From: Alentia gelatinosa
Taxonomy: Eukaryota; Annelida; Polychaeta; Phyllodocida; Polynoidae
Reading direction: 5' to 3'
NCBI GenBank assembly: GCA_950022655.1
Contig: OX465579.1
Location: forward strand, 138,641,118 to 138,705,117
Length of the DNA: 64,000 nt
The translations under genes and the position numbers were made by a program. Shown in pieces: positions 3,001 through 64,000 of the stretch (its first letter is position 1; every line of letters starts with the position of its first letter). Below the pieces are notes generated by a model. It had not been told where the DNA came from. It made no database searches and saw only the letters and a list, made by a program, of their open reading frames with translations.

Positions 3001-6000
3001 TTCGGATTGGACAGGTCGAGAGGAAGTGGGGTAAGGGATCTGCACTGTGTGTAGCCTGTGGGCAGGGAGCAACTCGCCATTGAGGTGGTGTTGGTGGTAA
3101 GGGAGGGGATTAGGGGAGGGAGGCATGCAGCTAAGAACGTGTATGTTGGCCACAAGCCAAATGTCAGGGGTGAGGTTGGCTGATGTTCTGGACCAGGTCG
3201 ATTACTCTAATCCCGCTGCCGAGCTGCTCACTTTCCCCGCTAGAGGGCAGGCAATGAGCAGCCTACAGGCAGCGCCGTATTACTACTATTACCAACCCGC
3301 TCAGCACCACTACTACGATCAGCTACCCTCCTACAACACCCCACAAACTACACAACCCCTTCTTACCATGGTAAAACCTCCTTTTCTCCCTCACATTGTT
3401 GACCGTGTCCCTTTATTTGATCTTATTTACACCCTTTATGGCCACTACGTGCTTATTTCCGTACAATTCGTAGATTGCTATTCCCGTCGGTGTCCACAAT
3501 AGCCTCTCCTCCCTCGTACACTGTGATCATATCGCCATGCCTGGTGGTGCCAGTCTGGTGATAGCTGTGTCCCTGGGGAAGGCAGTCGCTTGCAAACCAG
3601 CCAAAGGCCATTCTACTGCAATGCAGGGAATTCCACCATAATGATACAGTATTGTTGAAGGATCACATGGTGTTTCGAGGATTTCGACAATTTTGAATTT
3701 CATATCCCTGAGTTATCGTCAAACCTCAGTTGAGTAGAATTGGGCTGCTTCTTATTCTCGTCCCTGGAGGGGGGAGTGGGTGCAGTCCTGGACAGTTACT
3801 CATGAAGCGTGCCCCGCATGTATACATCCTACTTATATCTTCACCACTCTGTTCTCTATAGGGCAAGAAGCATGGGAATCCGCTCGTCTTATTGTTCATT
3901 CTCTTGGTGAGTTTGCGAATCCGACGGCTAATTTCTATAGAGATTATAATATGGTACATTTTCACTATGGTGCATAACTTTACTACCCTTTTCACGGCAA
4001 AATTGGTGTTTCTGAACCTTTTTTAACCACCGGGTAATTCTCTAATCATTAGGTTATTCAAATAGGATCAAACATGTGTTTGTACATCATACAACCGAAA
4101 TGGGATTGATATTTGTTTACAGGATCAAGCTGTAAGACCGAATTCTGATAATAAAGGGTAGCCCATCTAGATTATGGTATGTTATTCTTTACTTATTATA
4201 TATCCGAAATTGATAATATCCTATCATAAATTGCTCTAGAAAAAATGTTGAAGAGAACCTCAACAATCCGCGAATGTGTCAACATGTCCCATCTAACAGC
4301 GTATGACACCCTCTGCCGTACTCTACAAACGTGGTATAAGGGGCAGCGGTAGGTAATTATAATCCTTCCCCTGTCTCTTTTGAAATTGACTGGCTTGAAC
4401 TGATGCCCCATCATTCCCAAGGTCTGAAGAATAGAAAGGATGTAAGAGAAACTTAAAAGCGGCCTTAGGCGCCTCTGAGCAGCTTAAGGTGGCGGAAAGG
4501 TCAGTCTGTAACGAGAACATGGATCTCAGAACGCTGCAAGGGGTGAGCGATAATGATAAACTACACTGAGGACCACTATCCTGCCCTGCTCCCTCCTCCC
4601 TGCCAGCTGCCCCACCAGATAGACGCATACGCCCGTCATTCACACCACACCACTTGTCTTACGCGGCGCCTCATCGCGGACTCTGAATCATGGGACGATT
4701 ACCACCTCTTCCACCTAGCAGTACATGATACGTTATATCATAGAATACGTCTACGTCATCAATGGACCAGTAAGACCCTTCTCCGAAATATAAAGAAGGA
4801 ATTGATGCAGAATTACAGATTTGTATCATTCTTCTGCAGATATGTATTACTAATGCATTTCAGCGAGGCATGAGTTCACGACAAGTATTATCATTTTATA
4901 CAACAAGGGAATTCAGAATGAGTAACGAAGGATTGCAGCACAAATGATGAGAGGATGCTAGAACGCAGCTGAGAACATATGGATGTCTGGAAGGAGAAGA
5001 TCATAGAAGATATAAATTTGACGGGGGAAGGGTGAGGTCAAAACAGAACGACAGAAAATACATAGAAGGGTGGGAAGAGGAGATAAATGGCGGACACATT
5101 GTCTGCAATAGAGGCAGCTGAATGGAATGGTGTCAACATCCTTCAATTGCATTCGGCTGGTCTCTACCAAGTAATGAATGAATAATTCAAGACACATAAA
5201 TTAAATCATAAGAAACTATGCTGCCTTTAATGACGCGCCTAGGTTTTTGCTGCTGCTATAAAGGTGAAGGAATCTGCCTCTAGAGGCTCTCCCCTTTAAA
5301 ATAATAACTTGTTATCCATCCAACATCCTTCGCTTGTCGCCAGGGGCATTAGAATTCTATTAAGCAGCGCGGGGGAAATAGGTGGTCATAAAAGGGGTGT
5401 TTGGCGGTTATGGTACCCCTTCACCCTGTCACCATCTCCCCAGGCTGCCCGGTGCCAGAAGTATTGATCAGAGCCGCGGATCTGCCATTTGAACATTGGG
5501 ATTAGCTGAGGTTGCATAATGGTGATGGTAGCAGCTGAGGTCTCTAATGTCACCCAAGGGGTGCCGCCAACACTAGCCAGGCTGAAATGTTAGCGACATG
5601 TCGCTTTGTCCATGCCCTACTTCACCCCACTGCACCTCAACCCCTCCTCCAAAGCAATCACCTCACCATCCCTCCAACCTACCCAAAGACCTGACCAGCT
5701 TGCCACTCTAACCACCTCTAGACCATTCCCACATCCACTGCCGTCTGTCATACCCTTTAGCCTCATGGTTTGAACGGATCCAGTGCTGATGGTAAATCCA
5801 CTGTTTTTCTTTCCATACTCACAGCCCCACGTTATCTCTTAAATGTCCAGCTCCAATAAAACCAACTAGATTATACACCAAATCCATTGAGAACCCACAT
5901 CGATAGAACGTCTACATAAATGGCAAGCACACATATGCAATATCATATTTGTCTACAGCAACCCCATGCCTAATTCATGCAAAATAATATATAATTCACA

Positions 6001-8024: not shown

Positions 8025-8460
8025 TTAACTCTTTCTGTCCGAGCCTGATTGGAGAGCACAGGCACGATAGGACGAGGCATAATACCTCTATAAACCCCAT
8101 GGGGACGAGACTATCGCCGTATGGTGTCTGTTTGTCGTATGGGCGTCACTTAGCAACCGTTAGATACCAGTTACTATAGTTACTTATCGAATAACCACAA
8201 AGTATAATGATGAACATGGTATTTTTTATTAATTGTGAAAAAATGGTGTAAATCTATTCATTATTTCTCATAAAACATAACGTTTGTGATGGTGACACAT
8301 AAACATGAATATATTTTTAAACAATGCCTGGAGGCATTGCTCGTCCCCTGGGTGGGAATGCCTCCAGGCATTGCTCGTCCCCTGGGTGGGAATGCCTCCA
8401 GGCATTGCTCGTCCCCTGGGTGGGAATGCCTCCAGGCATTGCTCGGACTGAAAGAGTTAA
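8025..8460. mobile_element. Nested piggyBac-like MITE with TTAA flanks
   Basis: TTAA at 8025-8028 and TTAA at 8457-8460 flank terminal inverted repeats: CTCTTTCTGTCCGAGC on the left, and its reverse complement with one mismatch on the right (8441-8456). TTAA target duplication with a CTCTTT- or CCCTTT-like terminus is the hallmark of piggyBac-type elements. The element is about 430 bp, has no coding sequence, and lies wholly inside the larger foldback element, so it inserted later. Its right half is filled by a 34-bp tandem repeat. Confidence 0.75.
8323..8444. repeat. 34-bp tandem repeat, about 3.6 copies
   Basis: Units begin at 8323, 8357, 8391 and 8425 (last one partial). Each starts with the near-palindrome AATGCCTCCAGGCATT followed by GCTCGTCCCCTGGGTGGG. 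The first unit carries GG where the others carry CC in the palindrome centre. The short open frame across it is an artefact of the period. Confidence 0.95.
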
Positions 8461-23635: not shown

Positions 23636-23881
23636 ATGGTTCGAGCGATTAAGCATGGGAGTGATTCTCCTGAACTGCGTGACTCTCGGCATGTACCAAC
23701 CCTGCAACGATGACGTGTGTGACACCATGCGGTGTAAAGTCCTCGAAGGATTTGATCACTTCATCTTCGCCTTCTTCGCAATAGAGATGTGCATTAAGAT
23801 CACCGCAATGGGTCTTGCAGGCAAGGAGACATACCTGTCGGAAACGTGGAACAGACTTGATATGTTCATCGTACTCGCAGG
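23636..23881 (+). CDS. Cav3 (T-type) calcium channel alpha-1, repeat I S1-S3 exon
   Basis: The product is the pore subunit of a low-voltage-activated calcium channel in the plasma membrane. This exon gives 81 full codons plus split codons at both ends. It begins Trp-Phe-Glu-Arg-Leu-Ser-Met at the cytoplasmic edge of S1. It continues through S1 ([12 protein letters not shown]), the S1-S2 loop with three conserved Cys ([13 protein letters not shown]), S2 ([14 protein letters not shown]) with the acidic gating-pocket residue, and S3 ([14 protein letters not shown]). Alignment from memory with vertebrate Cav3.1 is close over the whole length. The donor is GG/gtaagt at 23881/23882, phase 2, matching the next exon at 36833. 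The acceptor is best read as a U12-type AC at 23635. An alternative acceptor AG at 23608 would add a non-conserved stretch before Trp, and AG at 23645 would remove the conserved WFE. Confidence 0.95.
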
Positions 23882-26800
23882 GTAAGTGACTAGAACAGCC
23901 ACGTGTGTGTATGCAGACACAGGACATTTTATGATTATGAATTTTCCTTTTATGATTGATGTGTATTTGTTTTTAATGGCAGAATCCATGTTCAACGTTT
24001 ATTTGTGTCCATGTAGCGATTGCCCGATCCAGTCATCAATGTTGGTAGAGCATTGCCTTTCTGAGGCAATTGTCCGTTCTTATTGTTGGTTTTTCTTCTG
24101 CTTCCTGTTGCCGCTGGCCTGCCATGCCTGTCCTGCTGATGTCTCCCCCCAATCAACCCCAGCCTACAGTAATGAATGGCCCTCGTGTGTAACCTACTGA
24201 AAAACGACATTTTAATTAGTCCCTGCTTCCTCATTATGGCTGTGATGTTAATGACATTTCCAGTGGCAGACCAGTGGAATCTATACACCAGTCATTTCAT
24301 TGAAAATACAACCGACAAGAAATAACTACCTCCGGTTCTTATCACAGCTGTCTTATTAGCTCCATATGTTTCTTTTTCTTTAGAGGCGATTCAATAATAT
24401 CAATCGATCACCAGCTGGCTTGTTATGACCATAGAGCTGTAACGTTCCGGTTTTATCAATAATTGCATATCTAACTCAGAAACAGCAAGGACTCTCTATC
24501 TCTAGTTGCCCTCTGGATAATGGAAACTGTAGTCGTAAACTGAAATGCGGAATAAGATATTGCTTGTTTAGATCTTCTGATTTCGATCTAGAATGTCCAT
24601 TCCTAATGAAATGGTGTGGGATATTAAGATCTCTATTTTTTCCTACGAGCAATTTAGATCCATTATTTACCTGTGTACAAGAAACGAGGCCTTCAAAATG
24701 AGATAAATAGTCCTAGGATGTTTGAGCCCAAGGTATGACCTTCAAAGAAAACATTCTAGAATATAAAACGAATAACATTTGACCAAACATCTATGATAAA
24801 TAGCTATGAATGAAACAAAAAATCGCTGTTGCCAAGCAACCTGCTGTTATATGCGACTATTCCATCCATGCACGTTTCATATATGACTTCCGCCTGTAGA
24901 GAAAGTATTAAACGAAAAAGCCACACGCTATATTGGTATCGTGCCAGTATCTAGCATATAGGGATAAAGAGGTTTTATATGATGCGGTCCACAAAATGCT
25001 CTGCGTGAGATAGACGAGGGGCTTCCTCCACCAGCACTCTTATAGCTGCAGGAAAACGCGCCTGGAATCGTATTTTCATGGAAAGTCATTAACGAATCGT
25101 GATAAGAAGTGGCCATAACGAAATGAATCTCTGTAAAAGTTGGGAAATCATTTCTGTTTCTTATGATATGATTCATCTCATCCAGTCCACCTCGAAACAG
25201 TCTCCCATATTCGATTTCCTCGAATAAAACGTGAGAAGGAGGTAATCTTGGTTAATGGTAGGGGTTGTTTTTCCTACCATATTAATCGAAATTACATGTG
25301 GTTTTACAGTCTCGATGATTATCGAAGAACTATGCACTTCACCTCCTTCACAATCATATGATGGATTATGTACTGAATAGGGAGGGTCATGGACAATATG
25401 TTCCAGGCCCACCCAAAGTAGTAGTTCGAATGTGAAGTTATGGAATCGAGAAGTGAATGTATTTACTTTTTGAACAAAAATGTGACAAGTGGAACCCAAG
25501 TTGGATATCATGCTACGTGATGGACTCAGTGATAGCATTGGATGTCATTCAGAGTGCGAATCTGTCGCTTCCACCTCGTTCATCTTATCTAATGACATTC
25601 CTGAGTACCTCCATGCACTTTGCATCAAAAAGCAACCACTCCATGGAGATTGGTACCATTGGGACCTGATTACTCAGCCTTGGCCAAGCGATAAGAGGTT
25701 CTAGCCAACATTACTTCTAACCATACCAATAAAATAGAGAGATCTAGCGGGCGGACTCAGATGGTGGCATACCAATGTGGGATATCATTGCCAGGACCCG
25801 GAGTATAGGTTTTACACTACTCGGACTGGGTCAAACTGCTTCCTGTGGTAATTTTTGTGAAAGTAATAGCATAGTTTTCGTGAAATACGAAAATGTAGTG
25901 ACACCCATTCTGTTGTTAACTAACAGCCAGAGGACATATAAAATGCTAAACAATTCTAAACAAAGATAAAAGTTGTCATTACCATAAGGAGGCTCGTCCT
26001 TCGGCACCATTGTATTATACCGCTAAGGTACTATGGCCAACAATGGAAACTTATTCCCCAATGACACCCCAATGACAACCACTACAAAATTTCTGTAAAG
26101 GCACGAGGGACTGACGGTGGCTTAACATAGATTTGTGGTATAAGGGTTTGGGTGGGGGTATTTCAGGAGTTTCTTGTCAATCTAGGGGTTCTTAAAATGC
26201 ACGTTGATCGAGAGGTGAACATGCTCATTTCCTGGAATTTCTATGACATGGCATATCACCGGAAGTCGTTGGGATGACGAATGAAACTGCCTCAAGTGTG
26301 ACAACGATAAGGGTGAGCAATAAAACCAATGCCAATGTCTTTACAAAACAATAACTCATGCTCTTGGAAATACTAGTAGAGGGCAATAAAACTACTCTGA
26401 TTCAGCCTGTAATAAGTCTTTGTTACAAAGAGCGGTCTTAGATAAAAAGTGCAATGTTACTGCACACCAGTATTGAGCAGCTAAATTGCGGTAGAGTCAG
26501 AGACGAGCACGTGATGGTGCACGTATCACGTGAGAGACGTCTCGTGACTCCTGAGGGCTGGCGTCCCCGCGCCCGTTCCCTCGCGCCCTCTCACCTTTAC
26601 CCAGCTTCTCTTCCACACTCTACATTATGCATAGGACCTATTTCTGAATGATAGCCAGGCAGACTTTGCACTAACTCTGAGAAGACCTGTTTTCACACTG
26701 CACTCCTGTGGCTTTTTTCGGTGGTTCCCGAAAACATCTAGATAGTGTTATATGTGTTTATTCCTATTACCTGTATCTGTGACTGGTAAAGTGGCAATGA

Positions 26801-36832: not shown

Positions 36833-36930
36833 TGCCGTGGAGTACGGTATGAACAACGAGAATCTAAGCATATCAGCAATCAGAACTATACGAGTGTTGC
36901 GGCCCTTACGTGCTATCAACAGAATTCCAA
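36833..36930 (+). CDS. Cav3 calcium channel alpha-1, repeat I S3-S4 exon (voltage sensor)
   Basis: Ninety-eight nt between a ttctag acceptor and a gtaagt donor. The first base completes the Gly codon begun in the previous exon. The product continues [15 protein letters not shown] and then S4, [15 protein letters not shown], with arginines at every third position. This is the voltage-sensing helix that moves on depolarisation, and it is almost identical to other Cav3 repeat I S4 segments. The exon ends ATT CCA A; the last A joins GT of the next exon to make the Ser of the conserved Pro-Ser-Met-Arg-Ile. Length, phases and sequence leave little doubt. Confidence 0.97.
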
Positions 36931-42700: not shown

Positions 42701-42878
42701 GTATGCGTATTCTCGTCATGCTGTTGCTGGACACCTTACCCATGTTGGGGAATGTGTTGCTGCTGTGCTTTTTCGTCTTCTTCATCTTTGGCATCATTGG
42801 CGTTCAGCTATGGGCGGGACTTCTTAGAAACCGATGCTTCCTTGATATACCAGAAAACATCTCGCACCCGAACCAACT
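42701..42878 (+). CDS. Cav3 calcium channel alpha-1, repeat I S4-S5 linker and S5 exon
   Basis: One hundred seventy-eight nt with consensus acceptor (ccccacag) and donor (gtaagta). GT completes the split Ser codon; 58 full codons follow; the exon ends with CT of a Leu codon. The product begins with the S4-S5 linker [16 protein letters not shown]. It continues with S5 ([17 protein letters not shown]) and the start of the extracellular turret, [21 protein letters not shown], with one Cys and one Asn-Ile-Ser glycosylation sequon. The stretch from LLLDTLPM to LLRNRCF is almost unchanged from vertebrate Cav3 channels. The 3' end joins 54596 in phase. Confidence 0.97.
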
Positions 42879-53810: not shown

Positions 53811-54595
53811 AAGATGAAGGTACCAGGGTCCCGATACACCCCGACATGGCTCACGACGGAACCAACATAATCAACCATATGGCTTGAGTTCTCCTTTATA
53901 ATTACGGAAATAATGTATATTTTTAAATACTTTTTCACCTGTAGATACAAAAGAGTATCATGTGATATTTCAGACATTATAAACTCAGTTGCAAGTTAAA
54001 GTATGAATTGATCGAATTGAAACAATTATCTTTAATCGAATTTCACCATATTTGCAGAGAGGCATTATCATTATATATACTAGGTATTCTGAAAATTTAA
54101 TAATTTAATAATTTTTCGATGATTTCCTGTTCAAATGCGTCACCGATACTCATCGACAGGCTAGGACAATAGATACATGTTCCATTGTCGTAGACTCCCC
54201 ACGATACGAGTTTTTTATCAGTGTGTATTGGTAGCGTTATTGTCGAAACCTGACCAACTGTCTCGATATGAGCTAGGATTTTGCTGCGATTTTGATTTTC
54301 TAACGGGATGTAAAAATTGGCATGTATCGGTGTGTATCTGGAGCCCTTTGGATACCCTCCCTTACAATAAACAATGAACAATATTTCTCTAAGCCTCTCG
54401 AATCAATGAATTGATCAAGTGCTTTATCCTCAGCAGCAGTAATAGTTCTACCTAAATCCAAAATTCGAATGATTCTGCATATTTCTATCATTTGCTACTT
54501 TATTCCTTCCACTCTGGCAGACCTTTCTGGCTTTGTATGTGTCTACCAATTTAAAAATGCATTTTTACAAAAGGTATCCTTGCTTGTCCTTTCAG

Positions 54596-54878
54596 AATGA
54601 AGCTCCGGGATTACTATGTGCCCACCAATGAAAAAGACTTCATCTGCAGTCGAGAAGACGATGGGGGGATGATGCAGTGTAGTGACCTCCCCATGTTTGT
54701 ATGGAATGGAATGCGATGCAATGAATCCGCCGCGCCCTGGTCGAACAACACACCCACCAATGACTCATGTGTCAACTGGAACCAGTATTACACTGACTGC
54801 AAAGCCGGTGTTAAGAACCCCTTCTTAGGGGCAATCTCTTTTGATAATATAGGCCTGGCTTGGGTAGCCATATTCCAG
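54596..54878 (+). CDS. Cav3 calcium channel alpha-1, repeat I turret and pore-helix exon
   Basis: Two hundred eighty-three nt, acceptor ccttttcag-type (tcctttcag) and donor gtaagtgg. The first base completes a Leu codon and 94 codons follow, ending in phase 0. The product is the S5-P extracellular turret. It holds five Cys (FICS, MQCS, RCNES, DSCVNW, TDCKAG), three N-glycosylation sequons (NES, NNT, NDS) and the conserved CVNWNQYYTDC motif typical of Cav3. It ends with the first pore helix, AISFDNIGLAWVAIFQ. The selectivity filter follows directly, so either of the two exons at 61505 and 61661 completes the pore loop. The variable middle (DLPMFVWNGM) differs from vertebrate forms, as expected for this loop. 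Confidence 0.97.
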
Positions 54879-56161
54879 GTAAGTGGACACTTACGTATCA
54901 TAATATCAATATCCTATTATTTCATAACTTATTTGGTGGTTTAGCATTCTAAGCTTGGAATTTAACTGTAAAGAGAACTAACCTTTCCTTATTGCGGAAT
55001 TTACTCATTGGTGATTAACTGCTAAGGAACACATAATCTTGCGGGTTCCACTATGCTTTTTCAGATTTCCTCTTCTATAACCTTTAACTATGATATTTGT
55101 AATCACGCGAGAGTGCAAGTTTACATATCGCACAACTCCTGTATATGAATCTTTAAAATCTGAACTCCTTCATTCAACTGGCAAGGCAATATCTCTGCAT
55201 AAGACTTATTTAAGGAAAATAACGCCAGAAGAAAGTAACTATCAGAAAAAGGTGTAAGATGAATCATTGGATGTAATCTTGTAGAAATTTGAGTATCTGT
55301 GAGCCGGTCCCATCCCTCAAGCAAAACAAATGTCATGCCACCTTCTCCAGCAAGCTGCTCCAGTTTAACGCCCTGGAGCACGATGTAATAGGAGGTAATG
55401 GCCCCTGGTGCAGCCCCCAATCTTGGTTTTCCTTTTGCTAGAGGCGGATGAGGGGCGGGTCCTATCACGCGAGGGGCGATGATGAATAATTACAAATTTA
55501 TCATGCGTGTTGCAATGTTTTGTCGTCATTTGGCAAGAGCTTTGTGTTTGGGTAGTTTTATCTGTTATTGTTGGGTTAGGGTTACAGTAGGCGAAGTTCG
55601 GGGTCACCCGAAGGGTGTTATGTGAGAGGATGGATGGTGAAACGTGTAGTGCAATGGGACAATGCGTCTCTAGGGATTGATGGTTGAAATGCTGGAGGTT
55701 ACGGATGTAGTGGTCTATGATTAGATTTTGCTGGATAGAGGGTCCGCAATGTACACAACAGGGTGGGACAGCGGTAGGAATTAGCATCGAAGTGCCTTTT
55801 CTTAATTACATAAAACCGATATGTGTGCTACATGTGCCCCCCACCTTGCACACAGCCCACCACCTTAAAGCTTGAGCCATGGCAACCACGAGTAAAAACG
55901 TGAACTCCGGGGCAGGACAATGATCGCAGTGCAATCAATAATCCGTCCCAGTGTAATAAGGCATGCAGCTCGCAAGATAACTGAACGCCAGCCGCAATTT
56001 CTCCTACAAGGCCTCTTCTAAAAAGCCTTGGTAACGAAAGAAGGAGCCCCGAAGTTTAATTGGACCTGGGACATGAGCGACGGTGATATAGATGTTTGTA
56101 TCGGCGCGAGGCTAGGAGTAGAGTTGAGCATACTGTAGGAAAGAGGGGGGGGGGGGAATAC

Positions 56162-59600: not shown

Positions 59601-61504
59601 AGAGGTTCCTCAAATCCATACCCATGAGGATAAGGGATAAGCACAAGAAATTTACAAGTTTGTTGTCATACATCTTATTGCTGCTACTTGTAAGTAATTT
59701 TGATGTTAATGTAACTTATGTATGTGGTATGAGCAATGCTTATCATTCTGGAAGTTATATTTCATAATGGGTTCGTAATATTGATAATAGCAATCAAAAC
59801 TTTCTATTGTTTACTGTGTTCCTCTAGTTCTTCCTGTTTATTGATAAACGTCCGTTTCTGCTAATTGGGATATCGATTTGGGAAGGTTTTTTTTGCAAAA
59901 CAACGGTAGCACCTCAATTTAGGGTAATAATGGCATTGGCAGCAACCCATTAATAAACACCATCTCTGGGACCCAGACAAACAGCAGAGGAGTAGGACCG
60001 GCTCAAAGACATTTGGTATGATGTTCCATGTCCTTGTCTATATCATACAAATATGCGAATCATTTATTTGGAATTTTCATTTCTGCATTTGATGTTGATA
60101 TTTTACATGGTTTTATCAAATGTTCTATTGAAAATGTAGCATTTTCACTTGCAGTATTTGTGGATCTTTTCCAGCGTTTCTGCGCTGTTCGGAAATACAT
60201 TTTGAATTCGCATCAATATGATTACTCCATGTTTCAAACGTATTTTGGCCATTTTGTTTCCTTTTTACATCGTTCAAATATTGGCAATCCATTTATGCAT
60301 GGGTATTGTGGGGATGCATATATTGCGATTTTTCTGCATGAATCTTACTTTCATTGTTTAAACGATTCCCGTGGTCACTGTTACCTTCCTGTAATGCACC
60401 ATTCCACTAGACAAGCGGTGGTACTCCTATATAACTCAGCCTCATATTCCAATCCAAAGTAAAACAGACATCTATATTCCAACTGTTTAGCATAGAAATG
60501 TGCCAATCATTCCCATATAAATTGCATCCTCGGAATACAGTGCAAAACAAATGCAATAGCAATAGAAAAAGTCCATGTTCAGGAAGCTTCCAATAAAAAT
60601 GGTTATTATACCAGTAAACCATTGTCTAATAGGAAGGTGCATAGGGGGATCATTTGATTACAATGTGGTACATATATCTGTTACCCTGGTGATGGACTGT
60701 TTCTATACTTTTACCCTTTCTTTCTGTCCTTTGCTACTGACCCTTCTTCCTTACAGAGCAACTCGGAAGGTAAGCCACCAGCCTACATTTTTAACTGTGG
60801 GAAGTTGGTCAATCATTGATTCCTTTTATTTTCCATTGGACTTTGTCCTTTTGTCCTTTGACCTTTCAGTTGCCATTGGTGAAGTGGGCAGGTGTCCCGA
60901 TCATGGCAAAACACTGGCAGGTCTGATCGCACCAGTTCGGGCTACACTGAGTGTCCAAACTGAACTCTTATCTCACTACTTTACCCTCATTACAACTCTT
61001 TATCTAACATATCTATATTTGGTAAAGCTAGTCGTTTACTTATCTCTTTCTACTAACATATGGAACCTTTAGATGATACAGGATAAAAAAAGGTTGATGG
61101 GAAAACAATCGTTTACTCAACTAGATCGACGATGAATAATTATTTATCAATTAAAAGGAATGGCACCCTATGAATATTAATCATTGGACTCTATATTCTA
61201 GCTAAAGTATTATATCAGCGATTGTCAGACGAATTATGCGATTACACGAAAGAAATCTGCAAAGGCTACTCTATATGAAATGAAATAAAGAACAATATCT
61301 CACGCAAAAAAGACGGTTATACTGAATGATTTTAAAATACTTGATAAATAATTATGCAGTTATGGAATTAGCCACAACTTTTGCGATCAGGAGGTGCAAT
61401 GTTTTTCAATGATCAACGTCTAGGAGTAGTGGAATGGATCTCTTACCTACCTGACTACATGACTTCATTACCTCATCACGATGCTCTTTTTGTCTATTTT
61501 TCAG

Positions 61505-61597
61505 GTCATCAGCCTAGAAGGTTGGGTTGATATCATGTATTTTGTCCAGGATGCTCACTCATTCTGGGATTGGGTATATTTTGTCGCACTTATTGTG
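61505..61597 (+). CDS. Cav3 calcium channel alpha-1, repeat I selectivity-filter exon, form a (Glu)
   Basis: A 93-nt, phase 0-0 exon of 31 codons with a strong pyrimidine tract and cag acceptor, and a gtaagtacc donor. It encodes [15 protein letters not shown], the selectivity filter and second pore helix, then DAHSFWDW and the first part of S6. Glu-5 of the exon is the repeat I glutamate of the EEDD ring that gives T-type channels their calcium selectivity. Asp-9 is also conserved in the family. This is the canonical form. It follows the pore helix exon at 54596-54878 in frame. The rest of S6 (normally Gly-Ser-Phe-Phe-Met-Ile-Asn) is not in the window. Confidence 0.97.
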
Positions 61598-61660
61598 GTA
61601 AGTACCCCACGCAATAGCATCGTTTTTTCATCGATTTCTATTCACTTTTCTGTTTTTCAG
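61598..61660 (+). other. 63-nt spacer intron between the two filter exons
   Basis: Runs gtaagt to tttttcag. The best branch-point candidate is TTCAC with A near 61644, about 47 nt from the donor and 16 nt from the acceptor. A donor-to-branch distance this short normally prevents U1 and U2 from binding together, which would stop exon a from being joined to exon b. All other introns of this gene in the window are several kb. Some animals do splice introns of about 60 nt efficiently, so the effect is inferred. Confidence 0.85.
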
Positions 61661-61753
61661 GTCATAAGCCTAGCGGGCTGGGTAAATATTATGTATTATG
61701 TACAGGATGCACACTCTTTCTGGGATTGGATATATTTTGTTTCACTAATTGTG
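61661..61753 (+). CDS. Cav3 calcium channel alpha-1, repeat I selectivity-filter exon, form b (Ala)
   Basis: The exon has the same length (93 nt), the same phase (0-0) and the same strong splice sites (ctgtttttcag / gtaagtaag) as form a. It encodes [15 protein letters not shown] and then DAHSFWDW and the start of S6. Five of 31 residues differ from form a: Glu5Ala, Asp9Asn, Phe13Tyr, Val24Ile, Ala28Ser. Seventy-eight of 93 bases are identical; nine differences are silent third-base changes. The family-invariant filter glutamate is gone and the neighbouring acidic residue is neutralised, while the structural Gly-Trp, aromatic and S6 residues are kept. I infer a mutually exclusive alternative exon giving an AEDD filter with altered calcium selectivity. 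It is not a decayed copy: no stop, no frameshift, intact splice sites. Confidence 0.92.
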
Positions 61754-64000
61754 GTAAGTAAGGTCCCATGGCATGGTTCTACTGCATCCTGTCTATGGAG
61801 CCCCCCCAGTACTTCATTCGTGTTTAACAGCACAGACTAGAGCTATAGATCTAGAAGCCTTTCAACTCAAACATATGAGCATTGGGAAGATGCTCATGTC
61901 TATACCTCTCTTTCTGACCGCCCTTGAGCCAGAGCCGACCCAGCATACAGGCTGCTCCCTATGGCTGAACTTTCCACCCCCGCTTGTGGTAACCCATACT
62001 GACGGCGGCTTCTCATTACCAGAAGTCCGTCACCACACAAGCCGGAGGGTGGAGGCGACGAGGGCCCTGCAAGTTGGTTTGATAGACACCCACCCATCAT
62101 CCCTGAATGTGGGGTGGTCGTCGCTTCACACACACAGCCAGTAGATGCCTTACGTTTTGGTTCTCGTTTGTGGACTGTTTTCGAATGATATGCACAAACC
62201 TCCCGTTATTATACGTCCCCAATATTAAGTCCACACTGGCGGGCGGGCCATAGAATAGCTTGGGTGGCCTCGTTTACCCGAACCCCCATTACCACCGCCT
62301 CCCTCCTTTGCTTGCTGTGTTATCCCGTTAGCTTTTGTACACCAGTAGCTGATGCCCCCTTCGTGTCACCTTAGCGACCCCTGTTGTCATATAGAGTTTG
62401 CTTACCTTCAGCGTCCAACGCATCATGATGTGCTCCCAATGAAACTCTCGTTTTAGAATACACCTTCTTTCTCATCTGTAAAAAATTCTAGTACCATAAT
62501 TGCAAATTTCTCCAGTCGATAGCCATCTCCTAAATGTCTCTATACAATTCTCTTTTCGTTTGCGTCCGATTTGAATCAAACATTATGGTATCATGCAAAT
62601 GGGTTTCCGTGATGAAATATTTTGTCACAGAAACCTTTTATTTCATGGATCAATAATGGCACAAAATATTAACAGAATAGTCGGAAAGTAGAGGGTAATG
62701 AGAAACATCATATGATTGGTACGACTTCCCGCTTGCGGTAGATATTTTAGATTTGGGTTGCAACCCCTTGGTCTGTCAACCGCATCTTGCTCTTTACCGG
62801 TATTGCATGAACTATCTGCCATGCTGCCCATTCCGTGACCTTGATGACTGCTGTCTTGACCTTGTACATGATGACCTTGACATTGGCCTCGCTCTACAGC
62901 CATTCTAGGATGATCTGACTACCAGCAGGTGTATCCTTTGAAAATGGGAAACCGTGTATATATATATATACTTATATATGTACATGTATACGCATCCTTG
63001 GTTGGCGCAATACCTGCAGCACATTACTCCCCCAAACACTTCGTTTCTTGCAGCAAAATTTGACTGGGACATTCTACACGTTTAAAGGCGTGTGGGTTTC
63101 ATGTCAAATTTTACAATCTTTGACTGTCGTTATCGGTCCCCAATCTTGCACCGTATCCACATGCTAGTAAATCTTTGGTTCCTTCCCTTTGGACTTTGCC
63201 CCCCCCCCCTCCCCCAGCATTGCACCCACTTTGACCTTTGACCTGGCTGACCTTTCGTGACCTTTTGACCTTGACATTTCTGTGAAGCTCTTTTCATGCA
63301 TATCTGAGGAACAGTCCACTTGAACTAGCCTAATCGTCGTGAAGTTTCATTTTTACCTAACTTTTGAAACATTTTTTGACGCCTACGTTTTTGACCTATA
63401 TTAGCCTGATAACCTTGGGTGCATGGCCGGTTCCGGTTCCGGTCCTTTTTTGTGAACCCCTTGACCTTTTGTGACCTCTGGTGACCTTTGATCTAACTGG
63501 TGAGATTGAATATTGTCGACGTCCTTGTGCTAAGATAAATACGACCAGCTATACGTACGTTTGTGGAGGGTTTCCAATAGTGATTTTCCTGTATCGGCAG
63601 TATTCCGCCGGAAATTATCAGTGCTCATAACAAAACCCATCCAGCACATGGGTTTTGCTCAGAAGGGTGAACAGTTGATGTGTTGGTCTATTGGTAATCC
63701 CGAGGTTATACGGAGGCGTATGGTGGTGATTCTTGATGTTAGCAGGATAATCTGACTGTATTAGTAGACATGGAAAGATCCTATGCTCGAGACAGGTCAT
63801 TGGACTTGAATCTATGTTGACCCCTCTGTTACTATAACAACGCATGCGACCATCCCCGCCCCGGACGCAAACACCGATAAGGTTCTCAAGGAGACCAGAG
63901 AGTTGCGCATGCGTGCACAAACACACAGATGACGTCACACATGGCGTCTGAGATGACATGTCAAGCCACGTATGTGTGTTATTGTACACTTGTATATATA
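61754..64000 (+). other. Start of the intron after the filter exons
   Basis: Begins gtaagtaag at 61754 and does not end in the window. I searched all frames for the expected S6 continuation (SFFMINLCLVV-like) and did not find it. It holds an AT microsatellite (62956-62990), TGACCTT-rich repeats (62838-62890 and 63220-63500), a C-run (63199-63215), and near the end TGCGCATGCG plus TGACGTCA motifs. Confidence 0.85.
63220..63500. repeat. Degenerate TGACCTT repeat
   Basis: TGACCTTTGACCT, TGACCTTTCGTGACCTTTTGACCTTGAC and similar units recur, with an earlier cluster at 62838-62890. It is a low-order degenerate repeat that includes DR1-like AGGTCA half-sites on the opposite strand. Confidence 0.7.

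Follow-up and report, generated by a model that had tools for sequence, protein, structure and literature searches.

The Cav3 (T-type calcium channel) gene of the polynoid annelid Alentia gelatinosa contains a tandem duplication of the exon encoding the repeat I selectivity filter and P2 helix, the second copy being without both acidic filter residues. The pair lies in a stretch of 64,000 nucleotides (the window; C1:138641118-138705117, in a genome of 1.23 Gb and 101 contigs). The reading we favour, at a probability of about 0.58, is that the two copies, exons a and b, are mutually exclusive in the annelid Cav3 and that splicing sets the calcium-to-sodium ratio of the T-type current, the b form being the less calcium-selective.

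Exon a (61505..61597) and exon b (61661..61753) are both on the + strand, are each 93 nt long and of phase 0-0, and encode the same segment comprising the repeat I filter, P2 and the start of S6. Exon a has the motif Leu-Glu-Gly-Trp-Val-Asp, with the filter Glu and the Asp at +4 both present, whereas exon b has Leu-Ala-Gly-Trp-Val-Asn, so that the filter Glu has become Ala and the +4 Asp has become Asn. The intervening sequence (61598..61660, +) of 63 nt runs gtaagt...tttttcag, and both exons alike are preceded by the acceptor tttttcag and closed by the donor GTG/gtaagt. Pyrimidines occupy 17 of the 20 positions (85%) from -23 to -4 upstream of each acceptor, and the two donors score equally, within the top 0.44% of the 3,674 + strand GT sites in the window when scored with simple weights. 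The repeat I turret exon upstream (54596..54878, +) ends in ...AWVAIFQ with the donor CCAG/gtaagt at 54878 and is predicted to splice to either a or b; the exons before it cover IS1-IS3 (23638..23881, 5' end approximate), IS4 (36833..36930) and IS5 (42701..42878), all on the + strand. When 25 coding segments were compared with 164 kb of sequence, a and b matched each other with E = 6e-17 and 84% amino-acid identity, and chance similarity was rejected on that value. Both also align without gaps to repeat I of human Cav3.1-3.3 (6kzo residues 350-380). The pair thus consists of neighbouring, homologous exons whose lengths and phases agree and whose splice sites are intact, as is expected of a mutually exclusive pair. 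The first-pass annotation had described two adjacent 93-nt exons of phase 0-0 with intact splice sites that encode one pore segment; its coordinates, translations and the 54878 junction were all exact, and the gapless alignment bears out the shared pore segment.

The gene was followed by tblastn with a human CACNA1G sequence as the query, through the window and the next 100 kb on its 3' side (extended coordinates, in which the window is 1-64000; 164 kb in all). The part traced lies between the termini of the gene, with the N- and C-terminal ends outside it. Repeat I matches were found at 23637-23882, from 36825, at 42703-42870 and at 54588-54881, followed by both pore exons. The next exon begins at extended coordinate 65951 (contig C1 138707068), past the window, and joins a and b alike in phase 0; IS6 and the gating-brake region start there, and the stretch after IS6 that aligns to Cav3.1 is taken by us to be the gating brake. 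Repeats II, III and IV follow, starting at about extended 79446, 113830 and 122748 respectively, and the pore of repeat IV lies at about 131548. The repeat I protein with exon b scored 392-407 bits against four Cav3 PDB chains, with the next family at 112 bits among the best 60 of 108 matches, and Pfam found Ion_trans in the a form and the b form. Identity as Cav1, Cav2, Nav or NALCN was rejected, the best non-Cav3 channel reaching 112 bits as against 407 to Cav3.1, and the same figures uphold the earlier assignment of the gene to the T-type Cav3 channels. No second Cav3 repeat I pore was found in a genome-wide search with the exon b protein, in which the five best candidates were scored and two of them matched, exons a and b themselves.

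The filters of repeats II, III and IV read TQEDW, SKDGW and TGDNW. With exon a the four filters are accordingly LEGWV, TQEDW, SKDGW and TGDNW, an EEDD ring with an additional Asp at repeat II +1; with exon b repeat I becomes LAGWV and the ring AEDD, which departs from the EEDD by which Cav3 is recognised. The repeat I Glu, equivalent to E357 in human Cav3.3, belongs to the EEDD quartet (PMC9019099). An EEDD/AEDD switch through an exon that removes the repeat I filter Glu had been predicted from the window, and at the level of motifs it stands, repeats II-IV reading E, D and D 3' of the window.

The two exons differ at 15 of 93 bases, 10 differences being synonymous and 5 nonsynonymous, and 10 of the 15 lie at third codon positions. 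This gives a dN/dS of 0.075 with a dS of 0.94 on 18.7 sites, values that carry a large error with so few sites. Of 100,000 simulations in which 15 substitutions were placed at random on exon a, 0.04% gave so small a number of amino-acid changes without a stop codon, while 52% created a stop. A test for the b branch separately is weaker: if b were neutral and 6 of the 15 changes had fallen on its branch, three or fewer amino-acid changes without a stop would be expected with P = 0.13, falling to P = 0.05 with 7 changes and P = 0.017 with 8. The low dN/dS speaks against free decay of b, although the constraint could come from the a branch alone. The earlier description of a and b as duplicated exons is supported, and their dN/dS is low. 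It is very unlikely in our view that exon b is a vestige or enters transcripts only through splicing noise; constraint on the b branch would be indemonstrable if few changes fell there, but b has no stop or frameshift, its splice sites are intact and the dN/dS of 0.075 is reached at a high dS (0.94 on 18.7 sites).

The five amino-acid differences between a and b are at positions 5, 9, 13, 24 and 28. Exon b matches the Ile24 of all three human Cav3 channels and the Tyr13 of two, whereas exon a matches the Glu5 of all three and the Asp9 of two, human Cav3.3 having Glu at filter +4. Since b keeps Ile24 and Tyr13, what sets it apart is above all the loss of the two acids. Seven residues unlike human Cav3.1 are common to a and b, which suggests that the exon was duplicated after this lineage had parted from the human one. 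The intron flanks of the two exons are dissimilar (14 of 25 bases identical before the acceptor and 7 of 10 after the donor). This dissimilarity, together with a DNA identity of only 84%, the 10 of 15 differences at third positions and a contig that spans 181 Mb, makes it scarcely credible that exon b is an assembly artefact derived from another haplotype of exon a, a reading in favour of which nothing was found.

The spacing of the two exons bears on how they are chosen. The gap between them is 63 nt, compared with at least 300 nt in the 15 other gaps between coding segments (some of which span further segments), and within it branch-point-like yUnAy motifs lie 33 and 47 nt in from the 5' end, at distances of 30 and 16 nt from the 3' end. 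By the steric constraint described for tropomyosin exons 2 and 3, so short a gap would splice poorly, which would force a choice. As 63 nt would be too short for efficient splicing, each transcript probably takes either a or b, and because the lengths and phases are equal the reading frame is kept with either exon. The gap itself amounts to 21 codons with no stop in frame, so its retention would leave translation running. Inclusion of a and b together, or retention of the gap with a lengthened repeat I pore loop, would in fact be in frame at both joins (a single open frame, 61463-61840, covers a, the gap and b), but two successive filter segments would be expected to break the pore and there is splice consensus at both ends of the gap, and the chance of either outcome is considered negligible. 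TGCATG is a splice-factor site; it showed no intronic excess at 54879-65950, with five matches (58076, 60296, 60335, 62804 and 63420) against a background of 0.43 per kb over the 164 kb.

The consequences of a choice between a and b were considered by analogy with channels of known behaviour. Form a would be a conventional calcium channel, EE(D)DD. Form b would be AE(D)DD, with a ring charge of -4 rather than -5 and one vestibule acid fewer, and would be predicted to bind calcium more weakly and to pass relatively more sodium with its low-voltage gating machinery unchanged, so that a cell might tune the calcium-to-sodium ratio of its T-type current through splicing. In register with Cav1.1, residue 2 of the query is 289 and hence residues 5 and 9 are 292 and 296; exon b neutralises both acids of repeat I, at the filter position (Glu) and at +4 (Asp). 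Cav1.1 D296, at repeat I +4, belongs to the divalent cation selectivity locus (PMC8184209). Neutralisation of the +4 Asp was visible in the first-pass annotation's own reading of the motif, where it was left undiscussed.

Support for a shift towards sodium comes from repeat II. Changing the +1 Asp to Asn raised the sodium effect from 2.32-fold to 8.56-fold in a snail Cav3 and from 1.32-fold to 6.53-fold in human Cav3.2 (both PMC9694082), and the authors of that study attributed the sodium permeability to a ring that carries a charge of -4. With exon b the ring charge would also be -4, at another site, and we accordingly favour reduced calcium binding and a larger sodium current. Charge alone, however, is insufficient to determine selectivity on the analogies available, and in a bacterial concatemer with a charge of -5 the conversion to calcium selectivity was incomplete (PMC7764494). 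The three-acid ring proposed earlier for form b has stood, being read directly as AEDD, whereas the attached consequences (lower calcium affinity with more sodium current, or a reduced or dominant-negative channel) stay predictions.

The main rival to this reading is a form b that gates without passing inward calcium, acting as a voltage-sensing or dominant-negative channel that would lower T-type calcium entry with the gene dose unchanged. In teleost slow muscle the Cav1.1 repeat I Glu is Gln, and in higher teleosts the repeat I +4 Asp is Lys, and each change abolished the inward calcium current when placed in rabbit Cav1.1 (PMC8184209). Both of these positions are altered together in exon b, and as the teleost Cav1.1 channels lost their calcium current at exactly these two positions a non-conducting form is a serious rival, although we regard it as distinctly the less probable of the two. 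The residues of b are neutral and small or polar, never Lys, for Glu to Gln in repeat I of cardiac Cav1.2 no more than a twofold rise in the calcium IC50 is cited (in PMC8184209), and a Cav3 with one outer-pore acid neutralised still passes sodium (PMC9694082). The twofold effect in Cav1.2, set beside the loss of current in Cav1.1, makes the size of the effect of exon b unpredictable. That same minor effect in Cav1.2 could also be read as pointing to an exon b that is used with nearly the same calcium selectivity and that alters gating, inactivation, divalent block or drug binding instead. This appears improbable, as the loss of both repeat I acids from an otherwise conserved exon suggests an effect on the ion pathway, and as the +4 charge is kept even in human Cav3.3 (as Glu). 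A less calcium-selective form b, selected by splicing, is the preferred reading.

Other pore-exon switches were sought in the gene and in the genome. At E <= 1e-3, the comparison of these 25 segments with the 164-kb sequence yielded 16 rows other than self-matches, of which four were the pair a/b and a second pair, 12a/12b, and the remaining 12 were matches between equivalent segments of different repeats, about 30-46% identical. No tandem pair beyond these two was found among the 25 coding segments. The second pair is the alternative repeat II turret exon, in which 12a (extended 90028-90145) has three cysteines, CxxC...C, in a segment of 39 aa and 12b (extended 91281-91434) has five cysteines, C...CxC...CxC, in 52 aa. 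R-K-N-F-D follows the last Cys in 12a and 12b alike. In the snail Cav3 a lysine difference between 12a and 12b sets the sodium preference, and with Lys before NFD in both exons here the snail Lys/Ala rule may not apply. The cysteine patterns of the two exons are as published (PMC7382465).

Elsewhere in the genome a pair of tandem NALCN filter exons was found on C4 at 27.116 Mb (extracts L034 1501-1644 and L033 1501-1653), of E-type and K-type with SQEGW and TQKGW, and judged by these motifs it is the published NALCN E/K pair 15a/15b. Both known switches were thus recovered by the method, and a/b resembles them. The earlier parallels drawn with NALCN and with the gastropod turret exon were well chosen, and both types of switch are also present in the A. 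gelatinosa genome itself. Sodium-channel-like exons were found on C3 at 71.2 Mb (repeat I TQDYW, repeat IV TSAGW) and on C5 at 46.7 Mb (repeat I TLDFW, repeat III TFEGW), and from their filters the two genes are read as Nav1 and Nav2. With Nav1-like and Nav2-like exons in the genome a sodium splice switch in Cav3 is, as far as gene content goes, not forced here, and the idea that the b form is a surrogate for missing Nav genes was rejected.

Comparison with known systems places a/b between several of them. The mammalian Cav1.2 exons 8 and 8a are mutually exclusive and adjoin the repeat I filter, as a and b do, but they begin past the filter Glu. In NALCN, exons 15a/15b give EEEE/EKEE in repeat II and 31a/31b give EEEE/EEKE in repeat III (PMC3557258, PMC4436565). 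These tandem exons, like a/b, swap the selectivity-ring residue itself, and 31a/31b are restricted to the pore helices, as are a/b; in the NALCN pairs, however, Lys replaces an acid in another gene and repeat, that of a leak channel, whereas in a/b Ala replaces Glu in repeat I of Cav3. The ring residue is thus changed by alternative exons in the manner of a NALCN-type switch in a host gene that is Cav3, not NALCN. The 12a/12b exons of invertebrate Cav3 belong to the same gene family and are a splice switch between calcium and sodium preference (PMC9694082, PMC7382465, PMC4436565), but their effect is on the turret of repeat II, with the EEDD ring intact, whereas a/b alter the ring in repeat I. 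Teleost Cav1.1 lost acids in nature at the same two structural positions (PMC8184209), but there the change is fixed per gene or lineage in a Cav1 with loss of calcium conduction, whereas a/b are a splice choice in Cav3. A cnidarian Cav3 paralogue with Asp to Asn at repeat II +1 has, like b, a Cav3 filter minus one acid (PMC9694082); unlike b, it is a separate gene, altered in another repeat, and its ring is still EEDD.

Several further observations were made on the window and the assembly. A 34-nt unit is repeated 3.6 times with 97% matches at 8323-8445, on the 5' side of the earliest repeat I exon identified, and scans of the 64-kb window with Rfam (at gathering scores) and for tRNAs gave no match. 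One contig, C101 (15,368 bp), is the mitochondrial genome, with all of its identified genes on one strand and 21 tRNAs found; the order is cox1, cox2, atp8, cox3, nad6, cob, atp6, nad5, nad4L, nad4, rRNAs, nad1, nad3 and nad2, where atp8 and the rRNAs were placed by the gaps between tRNAs and the other genes were named from reading frames. This is presumably the conserved annelid order, and the sequence was placed among the annelids on the strength of it. The positions of tRNA-Gly, flanked by Cys and Met, and of tRNA-Leu(taa), flanked by cob and Trp, are taken to be shifts from the usual annelid order, and an ATGT/TACA-rich repeat lies at about 4460-4755. A relatively conserved single-strand mitochondrial order has been described in many annelids (PMC8245539, PMC4866719).

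The Cav3 ring has been described as 'always EEDD', from choanoflagellates to humans (PMC10120453), EEDD was reported in the Cav3 of all species known in 2015 (PMC4436565) and it is given for the Cav3 of the early-branching phyla reviewed in PMC5095125. For the wider channel family eight pore configurations were recognised, almost without exception, and AEDD is not among them in the account consulted (PMC3557258). The first-pass annotation knew of no described Cav3 gene with an alternative exon removing the filter Glu, and nothing comparable came to light: no Cav3 with an alternative filter exon was found among the titles and abstract openings listed for open full-text papers. It is possible that an unremarked b-type exon is present in some automatic annotation.

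Taken with the turret exons, the pair suggests, tentatively and at somewhat less than even odds, that one annelid Cav3 gene has two independent tandem-exon pore switches, EEDD/AEDD in repeat I and the 12a/12b turret in repeat II. These could specify up to four channels with an outer-pore charge from -5 to about -3, a graded calcium-to-sodium dial that would include the first Cav3 in nature with a ring other than EEDD; the scale of four forms is offered as a hypothesis. If true, an AEDD Cav3 would be an evolved exception to EEDD inside a working gene, and a natural test of the parts played by the ring acid and its +4 partner in calcium selectivity in an otherwise near-identical channel. It would also mean that annelids, like snails and nematodes, tune the sodium against the calcium of their T-type current through splicing, and do so by a second route at the filter.
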